51,083 bases of DNA from a virus. Made by a program: the position numbers and the translations under genes. Numbering within the stretch: position 1 is the stretch's first letter; each line of letters begins with the position of its first letter. Location of the stretch: positions 1-51,083 of IMG/VR virus record IMGVR_UViG_3300042988_002169, one strand, 5' to 3'. The notes beneath the pieces were generated by a model, which was not told where the DNA came from, made no database searches, and worked only from the letters and a program-made list of their open reading frames with translations. This document shows, in pieces, positions 17,479 to 44,369 of this stretch.

Positions 17479-18850
17479 TAAATAATATTCATCTTATTAT
17501 GGAAGATTGCACCGTGGCTAGAAATAGTCAAATGCATATTATCCATGAAGAAAAAATAAATTATAAAGATTCTCCCATTAATAAAGTAATTTTTAGAACT
17601 CGATTACAAACTGCAGAGGAAGTAAACGGTAATAATCGTTTTTATCCTAAAAATGTTTGTATGGAAATTGTAAATTCTCTTCGAGAGAAAGCAAAAGGGA
17701 GATCATTATTTCAAGAAATCGATTAATTTTTAGGTCGATGTAAAATTTTGTGAATTCGGTGAAACTCTTTTAAATAGAAGACAATACCGAGCCAAGCTTC
17801 TATTATTCAAAATAATAGTTGAAGGTGTAACGACTAATTGTACACTCAAGTGAGTGGAAGCGCAAAATAATTAATTATTATACCATTTTATATGGTATAT
17901 TGATTAATTAAAGAGATAGTCTACTCTATATAGTAATATATAGCTGGATATAATTCCGAATAAAGCGTAACGAACTTTATTGAATATAAGGCATCCTCTG
18001 ACTGTATCCGCACCTCAAGATGATAGTTTTAAGAAAAGAGCTGCTGTTGTTGAAATAAAAAATTGCGGTAGTTTGATTCGAAATATCTATATGGAAGGTA
18101 AAGATATTGTTGGGGAAATAGAAACTTTAAGTGGCTTGGTTATTTAAGGTCACTCTAAATTTTGTGAATTCGGTGGACGTCCCTATTATGGCTCCTAGTA
18201 GAGGATAATGCCGAGCTTTTTCCAAAATCTTTTTGATTTTAAAAAGTGTAACGACTAGAGAGAAATCTCGTAGACTGCAAGCTATCGGCAGTTGAAGCGC
18301 AAAATAACTTATTTTTTTGAATAAGTTAAAGAGATAGTCTGATCTGCATAGTTGATATGCAGCTGGGAATATATATTAACCTCATTTGCCTTCCTCCCAG
18401 ATGAGATATATTTTTCCGAATAAGAAGTAGCGATTCTTATTGAACATATATGTTAAAGGGCCAGACTTAGCAAATTTAATTAAGGAAGATAAAGCGAATA
18501 TCGGGTTTTCTTGGCGCGGCTTCGCAAATATAAAACCGAAGACAAATAATGGAATTATGGAGGTTGCTACTCCACTGCGTGCAATTACCTACGATATAGT
18601 AAGTAATCCGTCACATGGTAGCGCTAGAATTTTAAGTTTCTTAAACGAAAGTCAATCAATTGAGAATATAAGAGATCTTTTAGTATCAGAATCTAATGAT
18701 GAGATATTATTAGAATCGATGGATTCTATTATATTTGAAAGCGAAAACTATCATCTTCCAGATAGTTCAAAAGAAGAATGCTCTAAATATGTAAAGACTT
18801 TATTATTAGAACATTTTAATTCTTTAAAACTCTTCTCATTAAAAATCTAA
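17475..18850 (+). CDS. Prohead core protease (T4 gp21-like), split by two group I introns
   Basis: Three exons: 17475-17723, 17992-18136 and 18453-18850. Joined they give 792 nt, 263 aa, in one frame. Exon 1 ends with ...SLFQEID and exon 2 begins HPLTVSAPQDD; the His matches the catalytic His of gp21 (T4 has a similar LNHPP). Exon 2 ends ...IETLSG and, with one shared codon (T|TT, Phe), continues FKGPDLANLI in exon 3, where GFSWRGF carries the catalytic Ser (compare SSRG in T4 gp21). The enzyme cleaves scaffold and capsid proteins after [LI]xE during maturation. Unspliced message would stop within each intron, leaving non-functional fragments. The start is the ATGA overlap at 17475; ATG 17499 is an alternative. 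Neighbours: DPxT protein upstream, capsid downstream. Confidence 0.9.
17724..17991 (+). ncRNA. Group I intron 1 in prohead protease (268 nt, no ORF)
   Basis: P1 is exact: exon end AUCGAU (17718-17723) pairs with GUCGAU (17734-17739), with the expected U.G at the splice site. P4 is UCGGU (17756-17760) with ACCGA (17786-17790). P7 is GACUA (17832-17836) with UAGUC (17917-17921) inside the typical GTGTAACGACTA and AAGAGATAGTCT elements. A terminal hairpin AATAAAG/CTTTATT follows, and the intron ends in G (17991). The frame resumes exactly at the next base. Too short for a homing endonuclease gene. Confidence 0.92.
18137..18452 (+). ncRNA. Group I intron 2 in prohead protease (316 nt, no ORF)
   Basis: P1: exon end AGUGGCU (18130-18136) pairs with GGUCACU (18148-18154), again with a terminal U.G. 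P10: intron UUUAA (18143-18147) pairs with the first exon bases UUAAA. P4 is UCGGU (18170-18174) with GCCGA (18210-18214); P7 is GACUA (18253-18257) with UAGUC (18335-18339). The terminal hairpin AATAAGA/TTCTTATT precedes the final G (18452). Core segments are close copies of intron 1. An apparent TTG-start ORF at 18440 is just exon 3 read from inside the intron. Confidence 0.92.
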
Positions 18851-31831: not shown

Positions 31832-33928
31832 TTATTGTTCCAATTCAGTAAGATATTTATTGGTTAAATATTGAGCTAGTTTAATAGTTAATTTTCCACT
31901 AGATGTAATTGATTGTGCTAAGTGATTATTAGAATAACGAAAGGTCTTTAAACCTAACACTCCATACGCCGAGTTCATAAGTACCTTAATAGCTAGCTGA
32001 CGAGTATTATAAAAATTATATTTTTCAGTCCCTCTAACAAAATTAGAGGCTAAACTTCTATATGATTTTCTTAATTGACTCATCTCATTTAAAAAATTAA
32101 CAAAAATTCCCATTTTTGATTCATGTTTTAAATAACAAGCACCATTAATAGTAATTATTAAATCTTTTAATTTATCTAATAAATTTTCTACATTTAATTT
32201 TTCAATGTAAAGATCACTACTTCCAGCATTATTAATTAAATATAATGTTTTATATTTTTCTTTTATATTTGAAAATGGATCGAATATATAATCATATACA
32301 AATTCATTATATGATTCGTGTTGTATATGAATCATATCGATTAAATCAACTAATGGTATTAAATATTGTTTTAATAAAATAGTTTCTTGAATAGATGATG
32401 GTTTATATAATTTTTCTAATTTTATATTTTTCTCTGCGAGAGAATATATATGATGAGATATAATATAAAATAGTTTATTCTTTGCCTTAGTTTTGTTAGC
32501 AGCTCCTTCTCTTTCTATATATTCATCTACAATTGAATATATATTTTGAAATAGATTTGATGGTAATGGTTTTACTCCTATAAATTCTTCTAAAACAGTT
32601 AATGTTTTATATGATAAGGGAGATATTATTCTAGCTTTATATGTATCAAATCCAATATTAAATTGCCGAATCATAGAAGGATATAGACCTGAAGCATCAA
32701 GGTCCATAATTATACCAATATCTATAATTTTAGCATTGGAATCTTTTACATAAGCTCCTTCAAAGCTATATGTAGTTTCTAAATATTCAGATCTAGCTAT
32801 TTTATCAGGTTTAACTTTATTATTTTTTGTAGTTGGTACTGGTATTTTAGATAGAACATCTGGTAATAATTCTTTTCCAGATTCTGTAACTAATCCATGT
32901 CTAATCTTTTTATTGGATTTTAATAATTCATATAATATAAAAGAATCATACAATGCAGATGAACCAATTAATGATTGACTAAAATTTAATTTCATATTTC
33001 TACGAATTAAATTTTGAAGTTCAATATGTCTTAATTTTTCATTTAATTTAACACATAAACACACATCTGCTATATTATATAGTAGATAGTTTATAGGATC
33101 ATTTTCATAAAATTCATGAAGATCTATATTTGTATTTTTATATTCTAATTTTGTTAAACCTAATTCTTCATCAGATATAAAATCTAATGAATAACTAGGT
33201 AATTTTTTACCTAAATTCAATCCTCCGTCGCCACGAATTTTATAACAATATTGAATATCACAGATAGGGTAATCTATAATTTTCATAAATCCATTTGAAT
33301 TAAATTCTATTAACCCAAATTGACTAATTATAGAATCTACTTTTGGCTTATCATCATTATAAAGTTTTAATAATCTTTTATATATATATGGATAATCGAA
33401 ATTATCACTATTAAAACCTGACAAAATAACACAATTAGTGTTTCGGATATATGCCCAAGCATCTAATAATAACTGCAATTCATTATTATATATATTAATT
33501 TCAATATTATCATCGTCATTAACATATTTTTCTTTCAATAACCAAGTTTTATAATTAATAATATGATTGTTAATTACTTCTTGGATATTACAATTTGGGG
33601 TTATTCCAAATTTTTGATAATTAAAATCATATAAAAGATAGAATGATTTAAAAATTTTTAATTCAGTACTATATACGGTTAATGCATTTATTGGATGATT
33701 CGCAACATCAAATTCAAATTTAACATTTTTATCATGCCAATATACTTCAATATCTACAAATAATATATGTAATTTTTGTTCAATATCTGTATTGTCGTCT
33801 GGATTATTTATATAATGTTGTGTTGAATAATATATTGGAGTATTTAAATCACTATTATAAATGTTATAAAAATTTAATTCTTTATTTTTTAGAAATGTAT
33901 CTAGTTCGGAATATTTAATTTCTTGCAT
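31832..33928 (-). CDS. DNA polymerase family B, N-terminal half (exonuclease, motifs A and B; 698 aa)
   Basis: Exo I is FVDIEVYW (D59, E61), Exo II LSGFNSDNFDYP (about 170), Exo III YNIADVC (about 284). Polymerase motif A is DLDASGLYPSMI (about 407) and motif B RQLAIKVLMNSAYG (about 639). The gene stops at TELEQ shortly after motif B and has no motif C. The missing YGDTDS and thumb are encoded separately at 43464-44369 on the same strand. Together 698+301 aa equals a normal T4 gp43-like polymerase. The stop is a clean TAA followed 2 nt later by a new gene, so this is a true split, not an obvious sequencing frameshift. T4-related Aeromonas phages are known to carry split polymerases at a similar place. 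Confidence 0.93.
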   Translation of the reverse strand: MQEIKYSELDTFLKNKELNFYNIYNSDLNTPIYYSTQHYINNPDDNTDIEQKLHILFVDIEVYWHDKNVKFEFDVANHPINALTVYSTELKIFKSFYLLYDFNYQKFGITPNCNIQEVINNHIINYKTWLLKEKYVNDDDNIEINIYNNELQLLLDAWAYIRNTNCVILSGFNSDNFDYPYIYKRLLKLYNDDKPKVDSIISQFGLIEFNSNGFMKIIDYPICDIQYCYKIRGDGGLNLGKKLPSYSLDFISDEELGLTKLEYKNTNIDLHEFYENDPINYLLYNIADVCLCVKLNEKLRHIELQNLIRRNMKLNFSQSLIGSSALYDSFILYELLKSNKKIRHGLVTESGKELLPDVLSKIPVPTTKNNKVKPDKIARSEYLETTYSFEGAYVKDSNAKIIDIGIIMDLDASGLYPSMIRQFNIGFDTYKARIISPLSYKTLTVLEEFIGVKPLPSNLFQNIYSIVDEYIEREGAANKTKAKNKLFYIISHHIYSLAEKNIKLEKLYKPSSIQETILLKQYLIPLVDLIDMIHIQHESYNEFVYDYIFDPFSNIKEKYKTLYLINNAGSSDLYIEKLNVENLLDKLKDLIITINGACYLKHESKMGIFVNFLNEMSQLRKSYRSLASNFVRGTEKYNFYNTRQLAIKVLMNSAYGVLGLKTFRYSNNHLAQSITSSGKLTIKLAQYLTNKYLTELEQ

Positions 33929-34263
33929 TAGTGCATATGTTTATTAAAATCATCATCAGGAAGCATAGGAATTTTATCATATTTTGCAAATCTTAGATGC
34001 ATATCCTCTTCATCTATTTCACGAATAGAGTTTAATAAAGTAAAATGTATCATATATATTGTATCATTTGCTATTAATGTCCCATATCCATGATCACTCA
34101 TTTTAGAACAAAATTCAACACAATCATCATCTGATAGTTTTTCTTCTTTTAATAATTTTGAAAGAATATCTAATTTAAAAACTATACTTCTTCCTTCTGT
34201 ACCAAATTCATCACATAAAAATTCACACAAATTTTGAATTTGATAAGTTTTATCATTTTTCAT
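33928..34263 (-). CDS. Unknown 111-aa protein between folE and polymerase
   Basis: The start overlaps the folE stop by 4 nt and its own stop overlaps the polymerase ATG (TAATG), so the three are tightly coupled. Acidic and helical, with the conserved-looking motif FCDEFGTEGR changed to CDEFGTEGRSIVFKL and several cysteines not arranged as a zinc site. No family recognised. Confidence 0.65.
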   Translation of the reverse strand: MKNDKTYQIQNLCEFLCDEFGTEGRSIVFKLDILSKLLKEEKLSDDDCVEFCSKMSDHGYGTLIANDTIYMIHFTLLNSIREIDEEDMHLRFAKYDKIPMLPDDDFNKHMH

Positions 34264-34826
34264 TTTTTTATAAGATTTAAAAATTCAATTCTTGCATTAT
34301 TTTCTTTTTCTAAAAATACACCTCTCATCGCGGAGGTTATTGTATCAACTCCATGTGATTTAATTCCTCTTGAAGACATACATTGATGATTTGCATTTAT
34401 TATTACACCTACACCTTTGGGATGTAAATTTTGTTCAATAGCATCAGCTATTTGTACTGTCATTCTTTCTTGTACTTGTAATCTACAAGCATATGCTTCA
34501 ACTAATCTAGCAATTTTTGATAAACCTACAATTTTTCCATTAGGAATATAAGCAACGCTACACACTCCTGTTATACTAGCCATATGATGTTCACAAAAAG
34601 AATGAAAAGGTATTTCTTTTAATAATACCATTTCATCGTAATTATTAGCACCATCTTCAAATACTTTAAATAATCCAGGTATATCGATTTTATATCCTTT
34701 AGTCCATTCTTTCCATGCTTTTAAAACACGTTTCGGTGTTTCTAAAAGACCTTCACGAGTAGGATCTTCACCAATAAACCCAATCAGATCCTTTATTATA
34801 TATTCATGTTGTTCAATATCTTTCAT
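34260..34826 (-). CDS. folE: GTP cyclohydrolase I (FolE, 188 aa)
   Basis: Catalyses GTP to 7,8-dihydroneopterin triphosphate, the first step to preQ0 or folate. DPTREGLLETPKRVLKAW (residues 21-38) is the family signature. Zn ligands are C78 (HSFCEHH), H81 and C149 (HQCMSSRG); the catalytic EHH and CMSSRGIKSHG blocks are intact. Length is close to the usual family size. With QueE and QueC in the same region it most likely feeds 7-deazaguanine synthesis. First gene of an operon with a 111-aa unknown and the polymerase N half; a terminator lies just upstream (34847-34878). Confidence 0.95.
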   Translation of the reverse strand: MKDIEQHEYIIKDLIGFIGEDPTREGLLETPKRVLKAWKEWTKGYKIDIPGLFKVFEDGANNYDEMVLLKEIPFHSFCEHHMASITGVCSVAYIPNGKIVGLSKIARLVEAYACRLQVQERMTVQIADAIEQNLHPKGVGVIINANHQCMSSRGIKSHGVDTITSAMRGVFLEKENNARIEFLNLIKK

Positions 34827-36864: not shown

Positions 36865-37569
36865 TTATTCTACACCTAAATATTTATGAACCTGCAGAGA
36901 AATTCTATATCCATATTTTAAAGAAATATTTTTTATACAGTTTAAATTTTCTTCATTTTTCTCTTTATTATATTCATCCATAGGGGAAATATAGATAGGG
37001 ACACCTTTGGAAATAGGACGAGCTAAAGGAATATATTTATTAGTTTGTGGATTAATAATTGGTAATCCATCATTTTCACTATAATTATTAGAACTAATAA
37101 TATATTTATATGCTTTAATCCATTGTTCTAATTTAGGATGTAATTTCCCAGTTTTTGGAGAACATACAATATGGAAATTAGTATTTGTAACGGGAAGATC
37201 TTCTATCCATACAGAACCAGAGGTTTCAACTTGAACAATATAATGTAAATTTAATAATTCTCTACATAATCTAGAACACAATGGTTGTAGAAAGGGCTCA
37301 CCCCCTGTTATAACAATTAGTCTAGTGTGATCTGGAGTTATTTTTTCTATTTTTTCTAATGCTTCATTAATACTTAAATGACGAATATCTGTTTCGAAAT
37401 CAGTATCACAGAAATTGCATTTAAGAGTACAATGAGCTAATCTAATAAAGGTACTAGGCCATCCACTGAATAGACCTTCACCCTGTATAGTATAGAATAT
37501 ATCCTTTACAAAAAGAACGTTATGATATTTAAAATCTTTTTGTGAATAAATTTTATTTTTTCCAAACAT
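36865..37569 (-). CDS. queE: 7-carboxy-7-deazaguanine synthase, radical SAM (QueE, 234 aa)
   Basis: YTIQGEGLFSGWPSTFIRL is the QueE N-terminal signature. The 4Fe-4S ligands are C47, C51 and C54 (CTLKCNFC, CxxxCxxC), followed by DTDFET and the SAM-binding ITGGEPFLQ. It converts 6-carboxy-tetrahydropterin to 7-carboxy-7-deazaguanine. An AGPI-like SPKTG segment (VCSPKTGKL) is also conserved. Belongs to a minus-strand operon with several unknown genes; QueC lies about 5 kb away. No QueD is visible, so the substrate enzyme is either elsewhere in the genome or supplied by the host. Confidence 0.93.
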   Translation of the reverse strand: MFGKNKIYSQKDFKYHNVLFVKDIFYTIQGEGLFSGWPSTFIRLAHCTLKCNFCDTDFETDIRHLSINEALEKIEKITPDHTRLIVITGGEPFLQPLCSRLCRELLNLHYIVQVETSGSVWIEDLPVTNTNFHIVCSPKTGKLHPKLEQWIKAYKYIISSNNYSENDGLPIINPQTNKYIPLARPISKGVPIYISPMDEYNKEKNEENLNCIKNISLKYGYRISLQVHKYLGVE

Positions 37570-37572
37570 GGT

Positions 37573-38439
37573 TTAAATAGTTTTGAGTTTTATGATTTCC
37601 CAACTTTCCTTAGTTAATGTTCCATGTGGTAATTTAAGTAATTCGTCAATACTAAAATGTTCTAATAATAAAGTATTTATTAAATCTTTTTTTTCAATTG
37701 AATATCTATATGTTGATTTAAATTCTTTTTTCTTTATAATTTGTTTTAAATTATAATCATGAAAATAATCAATTATGCCATATAGATCAAAAAATTGATG
37801 AAACCATATGTCAGATTTATATATTTCATTGATTAAATATGGATTATTTAAAATACATGTTTCTATAAAATAACTAAAATCGTTCTTTAAGTTTATAGAA
37901 AAATGAGTTAATGTGTCTGATATAGTTTTAAAAGAAGAATTTGGGTATTCTTTACAAGTATTTAATATTTTATTATATAGTACTTCTTTTAACTGAATAT
38001 TATAATTATTCCCAACCACACTCATAGATGATAATTGCTGGTTCATATTTGAATTATCTAACCAGGTATTAAAAGTATGAGAAGAAGTTAGAAGTTTTTC
38101 AGAAATTATTTTTTTGATGTCCGTTATTAAAAATACAATATTATAAAGTAAAGAACCAATACTATTTATTTTTATAGTATTAGCGCTAAAATTCATATCC
38201 GTATATGTATTAGATTGTATATCATTTAGTGTTTTTATATATAAATATAGTTGATTTTCTAATTCAATTTGTTTTATTTCATTTTTAAATGATAACGTTT
38301 TAAAATTAGGTGTAAAAACTATATTGTCAAATTTTTTAAAGATAAAACTATTACTATATATGAATTTTTCATAAAAATCTTTAGGAAATATTTTTTGTAT
38401 AAAATCAATCTCATCCTCAAGAGAATTAAAGGAATTCAT
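37573..38439 (-). CDS. Unknown 288-aa protein with C-terminal WExIKL tail
   Basis: Helical, Phe/Asn/Ile-rich. Overlaps the exonuclease stop by 4 nt and lies 3 nt before queE. The C-terminal HGTLTKESWEIIKLKTI resembles that of the 208-aa protein at 35661, and both share a repeated NxxxYNIxLKE-type helix pattern, so the two may be diverged paralogues. Function unknown. Confidence 0.65.
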   Translation of the reverse strand: MNSFNSLEDEIDFIQKIFPKDFYEKFIYSNSFIFKKFDNIVFTPNFKTLSFKNEIKQIELENQLYLYIKTLNDIQSNTYTDMNFSANTIKINSIGSLLYNIVFLITDIKKIISEKLLTSSHTFNTWLDNSNMNQQLSSMSVVGNNYNIQLKEVLYNKILNTCKEYPNSSFKTISDTLTHFSINLKNDFSYFIETCILNNPYLINEIYKSDIWFHQFFDLYGIIDYFHDYNLKQIIKKKEFKSTYRYSIEKKDLINTLLLEHFSIDELLKLPHGTLTKESWEIIKLKTI

Positions 38440-38954
38440 TTAAGTAAATCAATTAGGATTCTAGCGGATTGTCTAGCATCATTTAAAGGATGATGAATTG
38501 GAAGTTCATTTTCTTCCCTTTTAAAAGTAGTTAAAGGATTAATATCTTTAGCTATTAATAAAGAAGATAAATCTAATAATGGATATGGACCAAAAAATTC
38601 ACGAATTTCATTATCTTTAATACATTGAGATAAAAAATTTGTTTCAACTGGCCAGCTACAATCTGCAACTAAATATCCATCAAATCCAAATCTAGATCTA
38701 AATTTTTCCCAATCATCCCAAAAAAGTTTACGAACAATACCTGGATTTAAACAATTATATTCAAAAATTGGTATATTATTTTTAACCCAAGTATGATTTA
38801 TTAATGTTCCACTAGCTTTTTCTGGATTACATGCAATTAATCTTTCATTTATAATTGATAGATCTTTAATAACAACGTATCCTACGGCAAATCCTTCACC
38901 GTGTAAACCAATAGATTCTATATCAAATACCATAAAATTTTTTTTATTATACAT
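38436..38954 (-). CDS. DEDDh-type 3'-5' exonuclease (172 aa)
   Basis: FDIESIGLHGEGFAVGYVVI near residue 10 gives ExoI (DxE), ADCSWPVETNFL near 98 gives the ExoII Asp, and HHPLNDARQSA near 155 gives ExoIII with His and Asp five residues apart (HxxxxD). This is the RNase T/DnaQ fold. Small size indicates a single catalytic domain, perhaps for primer, RNA or DNA-end processing. First gene after the small-RNA array; a promoter for it was not seen nearer than RNA 5. Confidence 0.85.
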   Translation of the reverse strand: MYNKKNFMVFDIESIGLHGEGFAVGYVVIKDLSIINERLIACNPEKASGTLINHTWVKNNIPIFEYNCLNPGIVRKLFWDDWEKFRSRFGFDGYLVADCSWPVETNFLSQCIKDNEIREFFGPYPLLDLSSLLIAKDINPLTTFKREENELPIHHPLNDARQSARILIDLLK

Positions 38955-38982
38955 AATTTTCTTTTAAAAAAAATAAACAAGT

Positions 38983-39135
38983 AAAAAGGCGCCGAACACC
39001 CGTAGGTGCTCAACTATCGAAATCACTGCCAATTCCGCAGGCGCGAACACTCCTTGTCCAGGGGAGCCAATTTACCTCGCCCAATGATATTGCTATCATC
39101 GTATTCTCTAACGGTCCGAAGACTTTCGAGGCGAA
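38983..39135 (-). ncRNA. Small RNA 5 of the array (about 150 nt)
   Basis: Bounded by a promoter motif (39138-39157) and a terminator: GAGCACC (39011-39005) pairs with GGTGTTC (39000-38994) including one G.U that only works in minus-strand RNA, then GGCGCCTTTTT. Internal pairings include CCTCG/CGAGG near the 5' end and ATGATA/TATCAT with a GCAA loop. GC content is far above the surrounding genes. Contains no convincing ORF. Confidence 0.65.
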
Positions 39136-39137
39136 CA

Positions 39138-39157
39138 CTATATTATATCTATATCAA
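39138..39157 (-). promoter_or_regulatory. Promoter motif for small RNA 5
   Basis: Minus strand: TTGATATAGATATAATATAG. Contains TATAAT 7 nt before the predicted start at about 39135. Confidence 0.75.
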
Positions 39158-39175
39158 ATATTTGAAAACACAAAT

Positions 39176-39302
39176 AAAAAAAGTTTCGGAGGGAGTGTGT
39201 TAATCTCCCTCCTAGTCATTCTCCTTCGGATCTCTGGGCTTAAAAACTTAACACTTCATTTTTACACGGATGACTGTCCCAGACGATCATTTGTGTGCGC
39301 AC
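39176..39302 (-). ncRNA. Small RNA 4 of the array (about 127 nt)
   Basis: Promoter motif at 39305-39324; terminator is GGAGGGAG/CTCCCTCC followed by GAAACTTTTTTT. Two long-range helices interleave: TCTGGG (39283-39278) with CCCAGA (39238-39233), extended by GATC/GATC, and AGTCAT (39275-39270) with ATGACT (39219-39214). Order S1-S2-S1'-S2' is an H-type pseudoknot. Confidence 0.68.
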
Positions 39303-39304
39303 CA

Positions 39305-39324
39305 TTATATAATATCTATATAAA
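39305..39324 (-). promoter_or_regulatory. Promoter motif for small RNA 4
   Basis: Minus strand: TTTATATAGATATTATATAA. It follows directly on the T tract of the RNA 3 terminator. Confidence 0.75.
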
Positions 39325-39330
39325 TAAATT

Positions 39331-39550
39331 AAAAATAAAATAGGCCCCACACCCAGGAGAAAAATCTTCTGGGTGTGTACTCTATTATCTCGAACTCTCA
39401 TGCGAGGTACAAGAGAATTCAAAGCCTATGATTTTTCGTTCAGTAGTTATAGACATAATACTGAACCTAGTCAACTTCGGTACTGAAGGAATTGTAAGTT
39501 GACGAACTTACCTCCAGATCCTCCTCATTAGTGGCCACCAACGATTTGGA
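39331..39550 (-). ncRNA. Small RNA 3 of the array (about 220 nt)
   Basis: Promoter motif at 39553-39572; terminator is ACACCCAG/CTGGGTGT followed by a T-rich tail (39340-39331). Strong internal hairpins: GTTCAGTA/TACTGAAC, GAATTCTC/GAGAGTTC, and two mutually exclusive ones sharing AACTT, namely GTAAGTT/AACTTAC (local) and GTCAACTT/AAGTTGAC (longer range). Confidence 0.68.
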
Positions 39551-39552
39551 TA

Positions 39553-39572
39553 CTATATAATATCTATATAAA
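39553..39572 (-). promoter_or_regulatory. Promoter motif for small RNA 3
   Basis: Minus strand: TTTATATAGATATTATATAG, nearly identical to the RNA 4 promoter. Confidence 0.75.
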
Positions 39573-39576
39573 TAAA

Positions 39577-39789
39577 ATAAAAACAAGTAGATTTTTATAT
39601 ACCCAATTGCTTGGATATATAAAAATCTACTTTTGCTCTGATCTTTGTCTGGGTAGAGCAATATCGGACCAGGGTGTATCGCCACCGTCGCCACATTATT
39701 CCTTGAAGGATAGTTATTCTGGCTAATCGCCATGGGAAGTGGTCCCTAACTATCCATTACTGTATAAAATAAACAATTGTATATTTTAT
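39577..39789 (-). ncRNA. Small RNA 2 of the array (about 210 nt)
   Basis: Promoter motif at 39792-39812; the terminator is a very long stem (AAGTAGATTTTTATATA with its complement) followed by GTTTTTATTTT. A clear three-way junction: GGATAGTTA (39755-39747) closes with TAACTATCC (39716-39708) around hairpins GGGA/TCCC and TGGC/GCCA. Further 3' are GGTG/CACC and the 7-bp TTGCTCT/AGAGCAA hairpin. Confidence 0.7.
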
Positions 39790-39791
39790 AT

Positions 39792-39812
39792 TATACTAAT
39801 ATCTATATATAA
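39792..39812 (-). promoter_or_regulatory. Promoter motif for small RNA 2
   Basis: Minus strand: TTATATATAGATATTAGTATA, the most divergent copy 3' of the TATAGATAT core. Confidence 0.65.
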
Positions 39813-39824
39813 TTTTTACAAAAA

Positions 39825-39957
39825 TAAAAAAATTAGATCCGCCTGGAGATCGAAATACCGCAATATTAAGATCTCCAGACTTACCATTTTGTTTAACCAG
39901 GAATAGTCAAAACCTGTCGACCTATGGTCTAACCCAGAAGATTATGCGGTTCTAGGC
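39825..39957 (-). ncRNA. Small RNA 1 of the array (about 133 nt)
   Basis: Promoter motif at 39962-39981; ends in CTGGAGATC/GATCTCCAG (39878-39870 with 39851-39843) and a T tract (39832-39825). The hairpin loop contains TGCGGT, complementary to ACCGCA near the RNA 5' end (39950-39945), a possible pseudoknot. Additional small helices are GACC/GGTC and CAGG/CCTG. Confidence 0.66.
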
Positions 39958-39961
39958 TATC

Positions 39962-39981
39962 TTATTATATCTATATAAAAT
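39962..39981 (-). promoter_or_regulatory. Promoter motif for small RNA 1
   Basis: Minus strand: TTTTATATAGATATAATAAG. It lies just after the terminator of the 40028-40414 gene. Confidence 0.75.
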
Positions 39982-39993
39982 TTTTGAAAATAA

Positions 39994-40023
39994 AAAGGCC
40001 TTCTGTTTTATTAGAAGGCCTTT
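39994..40023 (-). terminator. Intrinsic terminator (minus strand)
   Basis: AAAGGCCTTCT pairs with AGAAGGCCTTT around an 8-nt loop, then TTTTATTTTC on the minus strand. It ends the 40028-40414 transcript. Confidence 0.92.
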
Positions 40024-40027
40024 CATT

Positions 40028-40414
40028 CTATTTTGAAAGTGCTGAAAGTTGTTCTTTCAGTGATTGGTGAGTTTTTATGAGTTCTTTGATTTCAGTTTCA
40101 TTAAAATCATTATTTATTATTTTTTGCACTAAGTATTCTTCAAATTTTAACATTTCTATTGAAGAATTTAATAGGCTTGTTATTGATCCTTGTAATATTT
40201 CTAATTGTCCATCATATCCTTTGATGACTTCTTTATAGAATTCGATAGACGATTCATACATCTTCGAATTCTTTTCCAATAGTTCAGATGCATGTTGATC
40301 CATTAGCTCGTATGGTAACATATATTTTGCACGTTTAGATCTTATCGTATCTATAATTGCAAAAATAACTACCACAATAATAATAAACCAAGCAGGCACG
40401 AAAAAATTTAACAT
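40028..40414 (-). CDS. Membrane-anchored coiled-coil protein, unknown (128 aa)
   Basis: The N-terminus has one clear membrane segment (WFIIIVVVIFAIIDTI, residues 9-24) followed by RSKR, giving N-out/C-in topology by the positive-inside rule. The remaining 100 residues are helical and coiled-coil-like (SSIEFYKEVIKGYDGQLEIL). Monocistronic, with its own promoter motif and terminator. Could be an inner-membrane factor (lysis control, superinfection exclusion), but nothing specific is seen. Confidence 0.75.
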   Translation of the reverse strand: MLNFFVPAWFIIIVVVIFAIIDTIRSKRAKYMLPYELMDQHASELLEKNSKMYESSIEFYKEVIKGYDGQLEILQGSITSLLNSSIEMLKFEEYLVQKIINNDFNETEIKELIKTHQSLKEQLSALSK

Positions 40415-40437
40415 GATAATTTTAAGTTTGATTAAAT

Positions 40438-40456
40438 GATATAATATCTATACTAA
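40438..40456 (-). promoter_or_regulatory. Promoter motif for the membrane protein gene
   Basis: Minus strand: TTAGTATAGATATTATATC, about 24 nt before the ATG at 40414. It overlaps the stop codon of the amidotransferase gene. Confidence 0.72.
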
Positions 40457-41121
40457 TTAGCGAAAAAATATTTATCATCAATATTTTTAAAAGTATCAAC
40501 AACTACAAGTTGTTTTGTAGTAAAATTTAATTGAAAAAGTTTATTTGGGGGAAGTTCAATAGCCTCTTCAAATATTTGTGAAGATATAGTCAGATCATCA
40601 TTATAATAAATTATTGAACTTTTATTTCTAAATAGTAATGCTTCGTTATTTTGTTTAATATATAAACATGCAAAAGAAGCATCTAAAAATTTCAAAGAAC
40701 CTAATAATCCATTTTCAATAATATCTGCTAAAATAGCATATGTGTCCCATTCAAATTTTTGATTTAATAATCTTTCTAGTCTTATCATATCTCTAGTTTT
40801 AACAATACCATTATGGTATAAATAGTGATTTATATTTTTATCTTGAATATGAGCAGGATGTATATAAGCATCGTTCTTTATCAAACCTCCCGTTGGAGCT
40901 TGATTATGCATTACTATATACTTATCATTGAATTCGGAAGAATTTATAAGTTCTGATAATTCTTCAACTTCAAGTTCACCAAAACCTTGTTTTATAATAT
41001 TGAAATCAAGATTTTTTGGATTAATATATCCTATTGAATGACTAAAATTCCCTCTAATCTTATTTAATTGGTATAATCCAATAACATAATCTCTATCAAA
41101 TGATCCAATTATACTACACAT
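40453..41121 (-). CDS. Class II glutamine amidotransferase-like protein (222 aa)
   Basis: MCSIIGS places the nucleophile Cys at position 2, exposed on Met removal, as in Ntn-type (class II) amidotransferases. HNQAPTGG (about residue 71) and the YHNGIV motif near 104, matching the family's HNGxI, are conserved, as is DASFACLYI. Such domains release ammonia from glutamine. Some phages carry this domain joined to QueC for amidated 7-deazaguanine; here it is a separate gene in the same strand and region as queC. Overlaps the YwbE-like gene by 8 nt. Confidence 0.83.
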   Translation of the reverse strand: MCSIIGSFDRDYVIGLYQLNKIRGNFSHSIGYINPKNLDFNIIKQGFGELEVEELSELINSSEFNDKYIVMHNQAPTGGLIKNDAYIHPAHIQDKNINHYLYHNGIVKTRDMIRLERLLNQKFEWDTYAILADIIENGLLGSLKFLDASFACLYIKQNNEALLFRNKSSIIYYNDDLTISSQIFEEAIELPPNKLFQLNFTTKQLVVVDTFKNIDDKYFFAN

Positions 41122-42473: not shown

Positions 42474-42627
42474 AAGTTTCAGTTAATGACATTTGTGGTA
42501 AATGAGATATTTTTATTATTCTATTATTTGTTAAAATAATTTCTATTTTATTATTATCATAATCAATATTTAATTCATCTATTGAACTACATGCAACAAA
42601 TTTAGTATCAGAAAGTTTTATTAACAT
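42436..42627 (-). CDS. Unknown small protein (63 aa)
   Basis: I choose ATG 42627 because GGAG lies 6 nt upstream, inside the end of queC; an upstream in-frame ATG (42648) has no RBS. It overlaps queC by 7 nt. Beta-strand pattern (KFVACSSIDELNIDYDNNKI) resembling small KTSC-like or PH-like phage proteins, without firm assignment. Confidence 0.6.
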   Translation of the reverse strand: MLIKLSDTKFVACSSIDELNIDYDNNKIEIILTNNRIIKISHLPQMSLTETFDYIRKQIDGDN

Positions 42628-43334
42628 GTTACACTCCATGGGGTCCATGGAATATCAATTTGATATGAAATAGGATCTACTAGATGATTTTCCATAAATG
42701 CTTTAATTCTTTCTGCACAACTAGGACATTTACCACAACTTTCTCCTAGTTCGTTAGGATTATAACAAGTATGGCAATTTTCAAATGGTACATTTAATTC
42801 CTTACCAATTTTAATTTCATCTGCTTTTGATAAATGTACAAAAGGTGCAGATATTTTAATTTCATGCAAACGATTTAATTGAGATATTTCATTTATTTTA
42901 TTGATAAATTCCTGACTATTATCCCAATATGCATATAAATCTTGTGATTGTGATGCAATAAATATTTCATCCGCATCATGTGATTCAGCAAATGATAGAG
43001 TTAAAGCTAGAAATATTAAATTACGATATGGTACATATGTAACTGGTTGAGGATTCCCTAATATTTCTTTAATTGTAGGGACTTCAATTTCACTACCTTT
43101 TATTAAAGAACTAGATGTAGATACTAAATCTCCAAGAAAAGAAATATCAATTATTTTATGTTCAATATTTAACAGATCACATGTTATTTTAGCTTTTTCA
43201 ACTTCAATTGAATGCCGTTGCCCATAATTAAAAGTTAGGGCTTTTACTTTATCTGCTCCAAATTCACTTACTATTTTATAAGTGAGTACAGTAGAATCTA
43301 ATCCACCAGATAAACTAATTGCTTTATTTTTCAT
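42621..43334 (-). CDS. queC: 7-cyano-7-deazaguanine (preQ0) synthase (QueC, 237 aa)
   Basis: ATP-PPase signature SGGLDS (residues 9-14), FNYGQRH near 39, TYVPYRN near 98, and the zinc-binding cysteines HTCYNPNELGESCGKCPSC near 190-207. It converts 7-carboxy-7-deazaguanine and ammonia to preQ0 using ATP. Full length, no fusion to an amidotransferase, unlike the Gat-QueC fusions described in some phages. The start is preceded by an overlapping small membrane gene. Confidence 0.95.
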   Translation of the reverse strand: MKNKAISLSGGLDSTVLTYKIVSEFGADKVKALTFNYGQRHSIEVEKAKITCDLLNIEHKIIDISFLGDLVSTSSSLIKGSEIEVPTIKEILGNPQPVTYVPYRNLIFLALTLSFAESHDADEIFIASQSQDLYAYWDNSQEFINKINEISQLNRLHEIKISAPFVHLSKADEIKIGKELNVPFENCHTCYNPNELGESCGKCPSCAERIKAFMENHLVDPISYQIDIPWTPWSVTC

Positions 43335-43467
43335 ACAAAAGATCTATTTTTTTATTAAAAATATTAAGTAAATACCAAATCATAACGCCGCAATATAGAA
43401 GCTCAGATAATGAACTCGCATTAACTGCTAATATTCCAGTACAAATAATTAAAATAAACTCAGTCAT
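43324..43467 (-). CDS. Small membrane protein (47 aa)
   Basis: ATG 43467 overlaps the polymerase-C stop as ATGA, and its own TAA lies 11 nt inside queC, so it bridges the two genes in a coupled operon. Sequence: EFILIICTGILAVNAS then a second hydrophobic stretch LLYCGVMIWYLLNIF, ending in charged NKKIDLLYEK. Two short membrane hairpins are possible (holin-like size), but function is unknown. Confidence 0.55.
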   Translation of the reverse strand: MTEFILIICTGILAVNASSLSELLYCGVMIWYLLNIFNKKIDLLYEK

Positions 43468-44369
43468 TTTTTTGAAAATTCTTTAATTAAATCTACAACT
43501 TTTTGAATAGTCGTAGCTTCAGTAAATTTACCCCATAAGTTATTCATTATCGATATATTAAATTTTTTAAATAATTCAAATACTTCTTCAGAATTATAAT
43601 TATAAGGTAAACATATAAAATTTAATATGTTTAAATGTTCTGAATTAATTCCATATTTGGTATTTAGATCTAATTCTTTTATTTTTGAAGCATTACTGAT
43701 TTCAATGGGAACTTGTAAAGCACTAGACAATGGTTTAAAAACTTCTGTTCCTATTAATGAATTATATAATCTCATACCTACAACTGATGATGGATCTTTA
43801 ATATAATCTCCATCATTCCATCGTACTGGAACCGCAAAATATTTAAAATTCCCATCTTTTATTTGTTGATTTAAATAATCATTTTTTTCTTGAGCTAATT
43901 TACCTAATTCTTGAATTATATTTTGTTTATTTAATTTTGAATTTAGAGCAATTTTTTCTATAAGATCACGAAGTAATTCTTTACTAAATTCATTAAAATT
44001 ACTTCGGACAATTGGAATACCTGTATATTCTACCGAAGGAGGATCAAAGATCTTACCTTCTTTTGAAATCATACTATATGCATAATTTTTCTTAATATCT
44101 AAAAACATCATTCTATTACATATGAATTCATTTTTGAATTCTGTATAATTATATGTTGGTTGAACATGTAATTTTGGTAATAGTGTTGTATTCAGATAAT
44201 TAGTTATTAAATTATTGATATTAACTGCAATTTCAGATGATTTACGCGAAGAATTTTCAATATCTGAACTATCAAGAGTTGGTAAATGAACGAATAGACT
44301 ATCAGTGTCTCCATAAAGAACATATTTGAGTTTTTTCTCTACAATATGCCAAAAATCTTTTTCAATCAT
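43464..44369 (-). CDS. DNA polymerase family B, C-terminal half (motif C and thumb; 301 aa)
   Basis: Starts only 17 residues before polymerase motif C, LKYVLYGDTDSLFVHLP, which carries the catalytic aspartates missing from the 31832-33928 protein. KNEFICNRMMFLDIKKNYAY, a typical thumb/palm segment with KxY, follows near residue 107, then ARW-like AVPVRWNDGDYIKDPSS. The two halves together make a complete gp43-like enzyme and must assemble non-covalently, since no intein splice blocks flank either break. It lies directly downstream of an intein-like ORF and begins after a terminator/promoter overlap (44390-44437). Confidence 0.92.
   Translation of the reverse strand: MIEKDFWHIVEKKLKYVLYGDTDSLFVHLPTLDSSDIENSSRKSSEIAVNINNLITNYLNTTLLPKLHVQPTYNYTEFKNEFICNRMMFLDIKKNYAYSMISKEGKIFDPPSVEYTGIPIVRSNFNEFSKELLRDLIEKIALNSKLNKQNIIQELGKLAQEKNDYLNQQIKDGNFKYFAVPVRWNDGDYIKDPSSVVGMRLYNSLIGTEVFKPLSSALQVPIEISNASKIKELDLNTKYGINSEHLNILNFICLPYNYNSEEVFELFKKFNISIMNNLWGKFTEATTIQKVVDLIKEFSKK

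Follow-up and report, generated by a model that had tools for sequence, protein, structure and literature searches.

A row of five early, autonomous jumbo-phage genes for non-coding RNAs very probably occupies the 1,073-bp gap at positions 38955-40027 of the DNA analysed here, a 51-kb IMG/VR record (referred to as the window) that covers part of a jumbo-phage genome whose lineage is a distant relative of AR9/PBS1. The gap is flanked by two minus-strand genes and contains five minus-strand units (U1 to U5), each of which shows a promoter-like motif at its start and a hairpin followed by a T tract at its end (38983-39981). An original prediction had described an array of five small RNAs in this region, and both its location and its strand proved correct, with U1 to U5 mapped from about 39957 down to 38982. 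Each unit has its own promoter and terminator and no coding potential, as expected of an autonomous non-coding RNA gene.

The array starts, on the minus strand, directly behind the preceding gene (40028-40414), whose terminator was located by a terminator scan at 39993-40024, immediately before the U1 promoter. This promoter (39963-39976) consists of the core ATATAGATATAATA, an exact match to the motif, and the upstream box TTTTCAAAA; it is followed by the non-coding U1 body and terminator (39826-39957; hairpin at about 39841-39880, T tract at about 39826-39832). The U2 promoter (39789-39808) shows the long form ATATAGATATTAGTATAATA and leads into a putative RNA (39578-39790) with a three-way-junction-like domain and a 22-bp terminator hairpin (39585-39632). 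U3 and U4 share the core ATATAGATATTATA, found by motif match at 39556-39569 and 39308-39321, respectively, with body and terminator at 39330-39550 (hairpin at about 39343-39380) for U3 and at 39174-39303 (hairpin at about 39188-39212) for U4. The core of U5 (39141-39154, likewise a motif match) is again ATATAGATATAATA, here with the upstream box TTTTCAAA, and its body and terminator extend over 38982-39135 (hairpin at 38991-39014). Throughout the row, the T tract of each terminator merges into the upstream box of the next promoter. As had been predicted, local GC is high, with about 34-52% per unit (0.52 for U5) compared to about 27.5% across the whole window, and the five bodies differ in sequence: pairwise comparison revealed no convincing homology among them, so that only the promoter segments repeat. 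A CRISPR-like array or a type III toxin-antitoxin RNA array was ruled out, as there are no near-identical repeated units, and a group I intron or a repeat array was likewise ruled out by the tests made. Two neighbouring group I introns are located elsewhere in the window (17714-17943 and 18119-18362, plus strand).

The window carries genes for a terminase (weak T4-type Pfam match), a head protein, a tail sheath, folE, queE and queC. Its family B DNA polymerase is split into two genes 10 kb apart (31832-33928 and 43464-44369), as is also the case in AR9 and in the relatives G038 and G042. Those relatives were obtained by several scans. A promoter scan led to G008 (IMGVR_UViG_3300000216_000003), whose gene order matches the window at 34-44 kb, while split-polymerase and sheath scans led to G038 (285 kb), G042 (315 kb; IMGVR_UViG_3300044712_000810) and the fragments G041 and G043-G046. 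Hereby, the sheath profile was the productive one; exonuclease and polymerase scans yielded few relatives, and the preQ0-cassette relatives (L035-L059) are without the promoter motif. Multisubunit RNA polymerase (RNAP) genes are present in G008, G038 and G042, the latter two of which each have two genes for the beta subunit; the window itself, being a fragment, contains none. Proteins with about 24-35% identity to these RNAP proteins are known from AR9/PBS1, phiR1-37 and jumbo phages of Listeria and staphylococci. Two of three sheath-bearing contigs from the genome collection were binned with Bacteroidota, which provides a weak hint at a host in this phylum. The GTP cyclohydrolase, QueE and QueC genes of the window (34260-34826, 36865-37569 and 42621-43334) are part of the 7-deazaguanine pathway and possibly serve DNA modification.

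The promoter motif is strongly enriched in the gap. Five copies of its core TATAGATATNA are present on the minus strand and none on the plus strand, compared to a mean of 0.012 and a maximum of 1 in 2000 dinucleotide shuffles of the gap; the core of U2 is the variant TATAGATATTAGTATAAT. Seven further copies are found in the rest of the window, none of them in the virion-gene part (1-34000). Eleven copies of the window lie outside ORFs, six with a coding ORF at most 110 nt away, the remaining five being the array. The leaders of the six gene-associated promoters have a GC fraction of 0.125, whereas those of the five array promoters range from 0.30 to 0.44. Combining the copies of the window and of G008 gave the consensus tTTTT.aa..attttATATAGATATaATA, and the promoters of the units are built from an upstream TTTTC box followed by ATATAGATATNATA. 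The motif could have been a chance product of AT-richness, which is rejected by the shuffles together with reversed controls: G008 contains 23 copies vs one of the reversed motif, and in G038 TATAGAAATAATA is found 33 times vs none.

In AR9, early promoters read by the virion RNAP follow the consensus AAATATATATTAT-6N-G (PMC5312081), and in jumbo phages of the AR9/phiKZ kind an injected virion RNAP generally recognises promoters that are AT-rich, about 10 nt long and centred near -10 (PMC7598289). An AT-rich motif of this type (about 10-13 nt, similar to AAATATATATTAT) is present in the window as ATATAGATATNATA, with variants in G008, G038, G041 and G042; in particular, ATATAGATATTAT of the window, ATATAGAAATAAT of G038 and ATAAAGATATTAT of G041 look like variants of the AR9 early promoter. 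Directly downstream of such a promoter in G008 (73103-73115) follows a tRNA-Met gene at 73122, so that the tRNA starts 7 nt past the motif, compared to a transcription-start spacing of 6-7 nt expected for this class. Given the AR9-like promoter and the multisubunit RNAPs in three relatives, the five RNAs would most likely be early transcripts of an injected phage RNA polymerase.

The evidence for terminators and for RNA structure differs between the units. A simple scanner detects the hairpin and T tract of U2 and U5, and a second detector those of U2, U4 and U5; the terminators of U1 and U3 are visible in the predicted fold only, with internal loops. Together with the motif counts, these hairpins bear out the promoter-body-terminator layout for all five units. 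It had also been claimed that one terminator stem needs a G.U pair that works only in minus-strand RNA, and U2 indeed has one U.G in its 22-bp minus-strand stem, which on the opposite strand becomes an A-C mismatch. Folding of whole units against shuffles yields z values of -3.9 (U1), -7.0 (U2), -5.1 (U3), -1.1 (U4, nested fold, not significant) and -0.4 (U5). When the terminator hairpin is excluded, U2 alone remains significant (z = -3.3; U3 drops to -1.35). Structure beyond composition is thus clear in U2 and, in U1 and U3, mostly due to the terminator hairpin. The many perfect stems of the original prediction were therefore overstated, as U4 and U5 fold no better than shuffles and strong structure in all five bodies is unsupported. 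For U4 a loop-loop pairing GUGUUAA/UUAACAC is possible (loop complementarity p = 0.02), a candidate pairing in U1 is ACCGCA/UGCGGU, and terminator-loop vs body complementarity across U1-U4 gives a Fisher p of 0.002. We treat the latter as a lead only, since this comparison was made post hoc and since the terminators of the relatives mostly end, by inspection, in short tetraloop-like loops.

The layout recurs in related phages. In G038 the long form TATAGAAATTAATATA, which is the same as that of U2, occurs five times, each time ahead of an ORF-less structured unit, and more units are found at 199059, 249899 and 263622/263525, some of them as tandem pairs. G042 has three tandem units (301356, 301581 and 301754), each with a terminator, and the row is immediately followed by a gene for an RNAP beta' fragment; this gene and the adjacent helicase gene have homologues inside the RNA cluster of G038. 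At least two stand-alone units, in addition to the tRNA, are found under the same promoter class in G008. The fold z values of the units in relatives range from -2.0 to -7.4. While the bodies vary from phage to phage, the common layout is a hairpin, a T tract running into the upstream box, the core and the body. According to the original prediction, related phages with intact ORFs over the region would speak against an RNA locus. This is found in part: the syntenic place in G008 holds small protein genes and no array, yet these ORFs are not homologous to the units. Since G008 in addition carries units elsewhere, this argues for a fast-changing locus and not for an artefact.

With promoters of the type found before genes, tandem units in relatives and the G008 promoter placed before a tRNA, the notion of a dedicated small-RNA locus as opposed to decayed genes is well supported. 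The region does allow ORFs of 28-88 aa, and one might take the units for decayed or overlooked short protein genes. We consider this hardly credible: the codon score is negative for every ORF of at least 25 aa in the gap (known genes: +0.07 to +0.32), which agrees with the predicted absence of a credible protein gene; the longer ORFs cross promoters and terminators; and a GC content far above that of the genome is the opposite of what decay in an AT-rich phage would give. Highly improbable, too, is that the units are tRNA, tmRNA or Y-RNA-like genes diverged beyond recognition, even though the relatives have tRNAs, a tmRNA and a Y-RNA-like array. Neither ARAGORN nor Rfam detects a tRNA or tmRNA at the locus, and the window contains no Y stem (GGUA..AGUCC), no match to RF02553 or RF00019 and no TROVE gene. 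In the Rfam comparison, which had been suggested along with the original prediction, no family reached the gathering score or matched the array up to E = 5, apart from chance microRNA-type matches to the long hairpin of U2. Likewise, a blastn search with the array in 50,697 phages gave no match, although these searches may omit records very near the window, so that a lack of homologues does not equal uniqueness. The unit bodies show no convincing homology to the units of G038, G008 and G042, to the L009 array described below or to the G042 Y array; one marginal body match (R2-U1) falls on the opposite strand of U1. These comparisons yielded no homologue of any unit.

The units, U5 above all, could alternatively be cis-acting leaders, i.e. 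attenuators or riboswitch-like elements of the downstream operon (the exonuclease-like gene, the gene at 37573 and queE). For the row as a whole we regard this as unlikely. About 30 nt without a promoter motif separate the U5 terminator from the gene at 38954, and in G038 and G042, too, the last unit of the row borders directly on a gene that has a Shine-Dalgarno sequence, which makes a leader a plausible rival mainly for U5. For U1-U4 it makes no sense, since each of them is terminated and followed by a fresh promoter; moreover, units such as g54 of G008 end against a convergent gene, and no riboswitch family (e.g. preQ1, given the nearby queE and queC) is matched in Rfam upstream of the operon. 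The product of the downstream gene (38436-38954, minus strand, immediately behind U5) may be a DEDD 3'-5' exonuclease-like protein, judging from a structure model (mean pLDDT 72) with Rv2179c (4hec) and RNase AS (4oke) among the best, albeit weak, fold matches, and from a relative in L009.

The likeliest function of the five units is that of trans-acting RNAs, which might either bind proteins or pair with other RNAs. That the units are early RNAs of the antisense type, using exposed loops to pair with mRNAs of the host or the phage, is a possibility we take seriously without favouring it. Unit size, intrinsic terminators and hairpin loops are sRNA-like, and the predicted RNAs of U1 (39932-39943) and U3 (39363-39374) contain a perfect 12-nt complement (p = 0.015 by shuffles; duplex p = 0.03), the U3 side of which sits in the U3 terminator stem. 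On the other hand, no convincing antisense signal emerged for the 47 regions around translation starts in the window (p = 0.03-0.9 over the five units), a comparison that covers targets of the phage itself. We lean towards protein binding as somewhat likelier than base-pairing with host mRNAs, in view of the GC-rich bodies, the stable hairpin loops, the possible post hoc loop-loop contacts and an RNP-type array (TROVE and Y-RNA-like units) in a relative; the evidence does not decide between the two, and the protein-binding role taken alone is a tentative proposal. A sponge for CsrA or an anti-SD sponge was tried and rejected, as GGA is not enriched (16 vs 17.4); AGGAG occurs 4 times vs 1.2 (p = 0.03).

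In the mechanism we propose for trans-acting RNAs that bind proteins, each unit would be transcribed separately from an early promoter of the virion-RNAP type, and the intrinsic terminator would stop each transcript, with its T tract leading into the next promoter. The resulting stable RNAs would then act in trans by binding or occupying host or phage RNA-handling proteins, either as decoys or as RNP scaffolds. More broadly, the lineage may maintain cassettes of structured RNAs that change rapidly and are transcribed by the injected polymerase. Such RNAs would be produced in the first minutes, together with phage proteins or ahead of them, and would bind host RNA-handling or defence proteins, and the terminator-promoter joint would make the cassettes modular; this wider picture is speculative and rather doubtful in its entirety.

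Stand-alone RNA genes are found in at least four members of an uncultured phage lineage, frequently arranged in tandem and under an AR9-like early promoter class, and the array looks like a real, previously undescribed RNA toolkit. Should the units be transcribed early, RNA would rank with the earliest products that the phage makes in the cell, and RNA-based host take-over or anti-defence would become directly testable. With AR9 the window shares, besides the two-gene DNA polymerase, the type of early promoter, one annotated copy of which reads AAATAGATATTAT in AR9. In contrast to the array, the annotated early promoters of AR9 are nearly all placed ahead of protein genes, and tandem ORF-less units are absent. 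Compared to the five units, the T4 tRNA region encodes stable RNAs of similar size and unknown role, RNA C and D, which are processed from the tRNA-cluster transcript and are not known to be separately promoted. Small structured non-coding RNAs of 100-180 nt have been detected by Grad-seq for the RNAP-encoding jumbo phage phiKZ (PMC8545117). Unlike the array, with a promoter per unit and five units in a row, the two described phiKZ RNAs are derived from 3' or 5' UTRs and have no start site of their own (PMC8545117). For phiR1-37, also an RNAP-encoding jumbo phage, ten novel non-coding RNA species were reported, nine of which are, unlike the array, antisense to genes and one of which is an isolated sRNA (PMC4848604). 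Non-coding RNA genes on record for phages are few: by the count of a 2021 paper, 21 had been described (PMC8545117), and a 2026 review of jumbo phages mentions the phiKZ RNAs in passing only (PMC13282480).

Several further observations concern RNA elements and repeats in AR9 and in the relatives. In AR9 (NC_031039, 181705-182060) an annotated early promoter at 181705 precedes an ORF-poor stretch of about 350-360 nt without annotated gene, with hairpins and a terminator-like hairpin, which from its sequence could be an RNA gene in a culturable phage. In G042 (38092-40900), as well as in L085 and L086, a weak TROVE/Ro60 match precedes a tandem series of at least nine Y-RNA-like units (GGUA..UUCAACG..AGUCC), one of which matches YrlA (RF02553, E = 5e-6) and contains a permuted tRNA-like body. 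The G042 array resembles that of the window in that non-coding RNAs stand in tandem in a phage belonging to the same lineage, but its units have a Y stem in common and are preceded by a TROVE gene, whereas the window units share no sequence and have neither. An ORF-poor array of 1.5 kb is also present in L009 (1708-3230), where two tRNA-like elements are combined with repeated linker stems. It is flanked by small genes on one side and an RNA-ligase-like gene on the other, and it lies 1.5 kb ahead of the sole viral relative of the exonuclease-like gene in the window; a TROVE match is found at the other end of the contig. About 4 kb of G046 (IMGVR_UViG_3300028920_000044, 101200-105100) are without long ORFs, GT-rich on the plus strand and show loosely repeated short motifs. 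In the intergenic DNA of G038, G043 and G045, an interspersed palindromic repeat around ATCGGCAAGATC / GATCTTGCCGAT is present in many copies. Finally, G008 encodes a tmRNA (104354-104711) with the tag ANDEFYAPVALAA.
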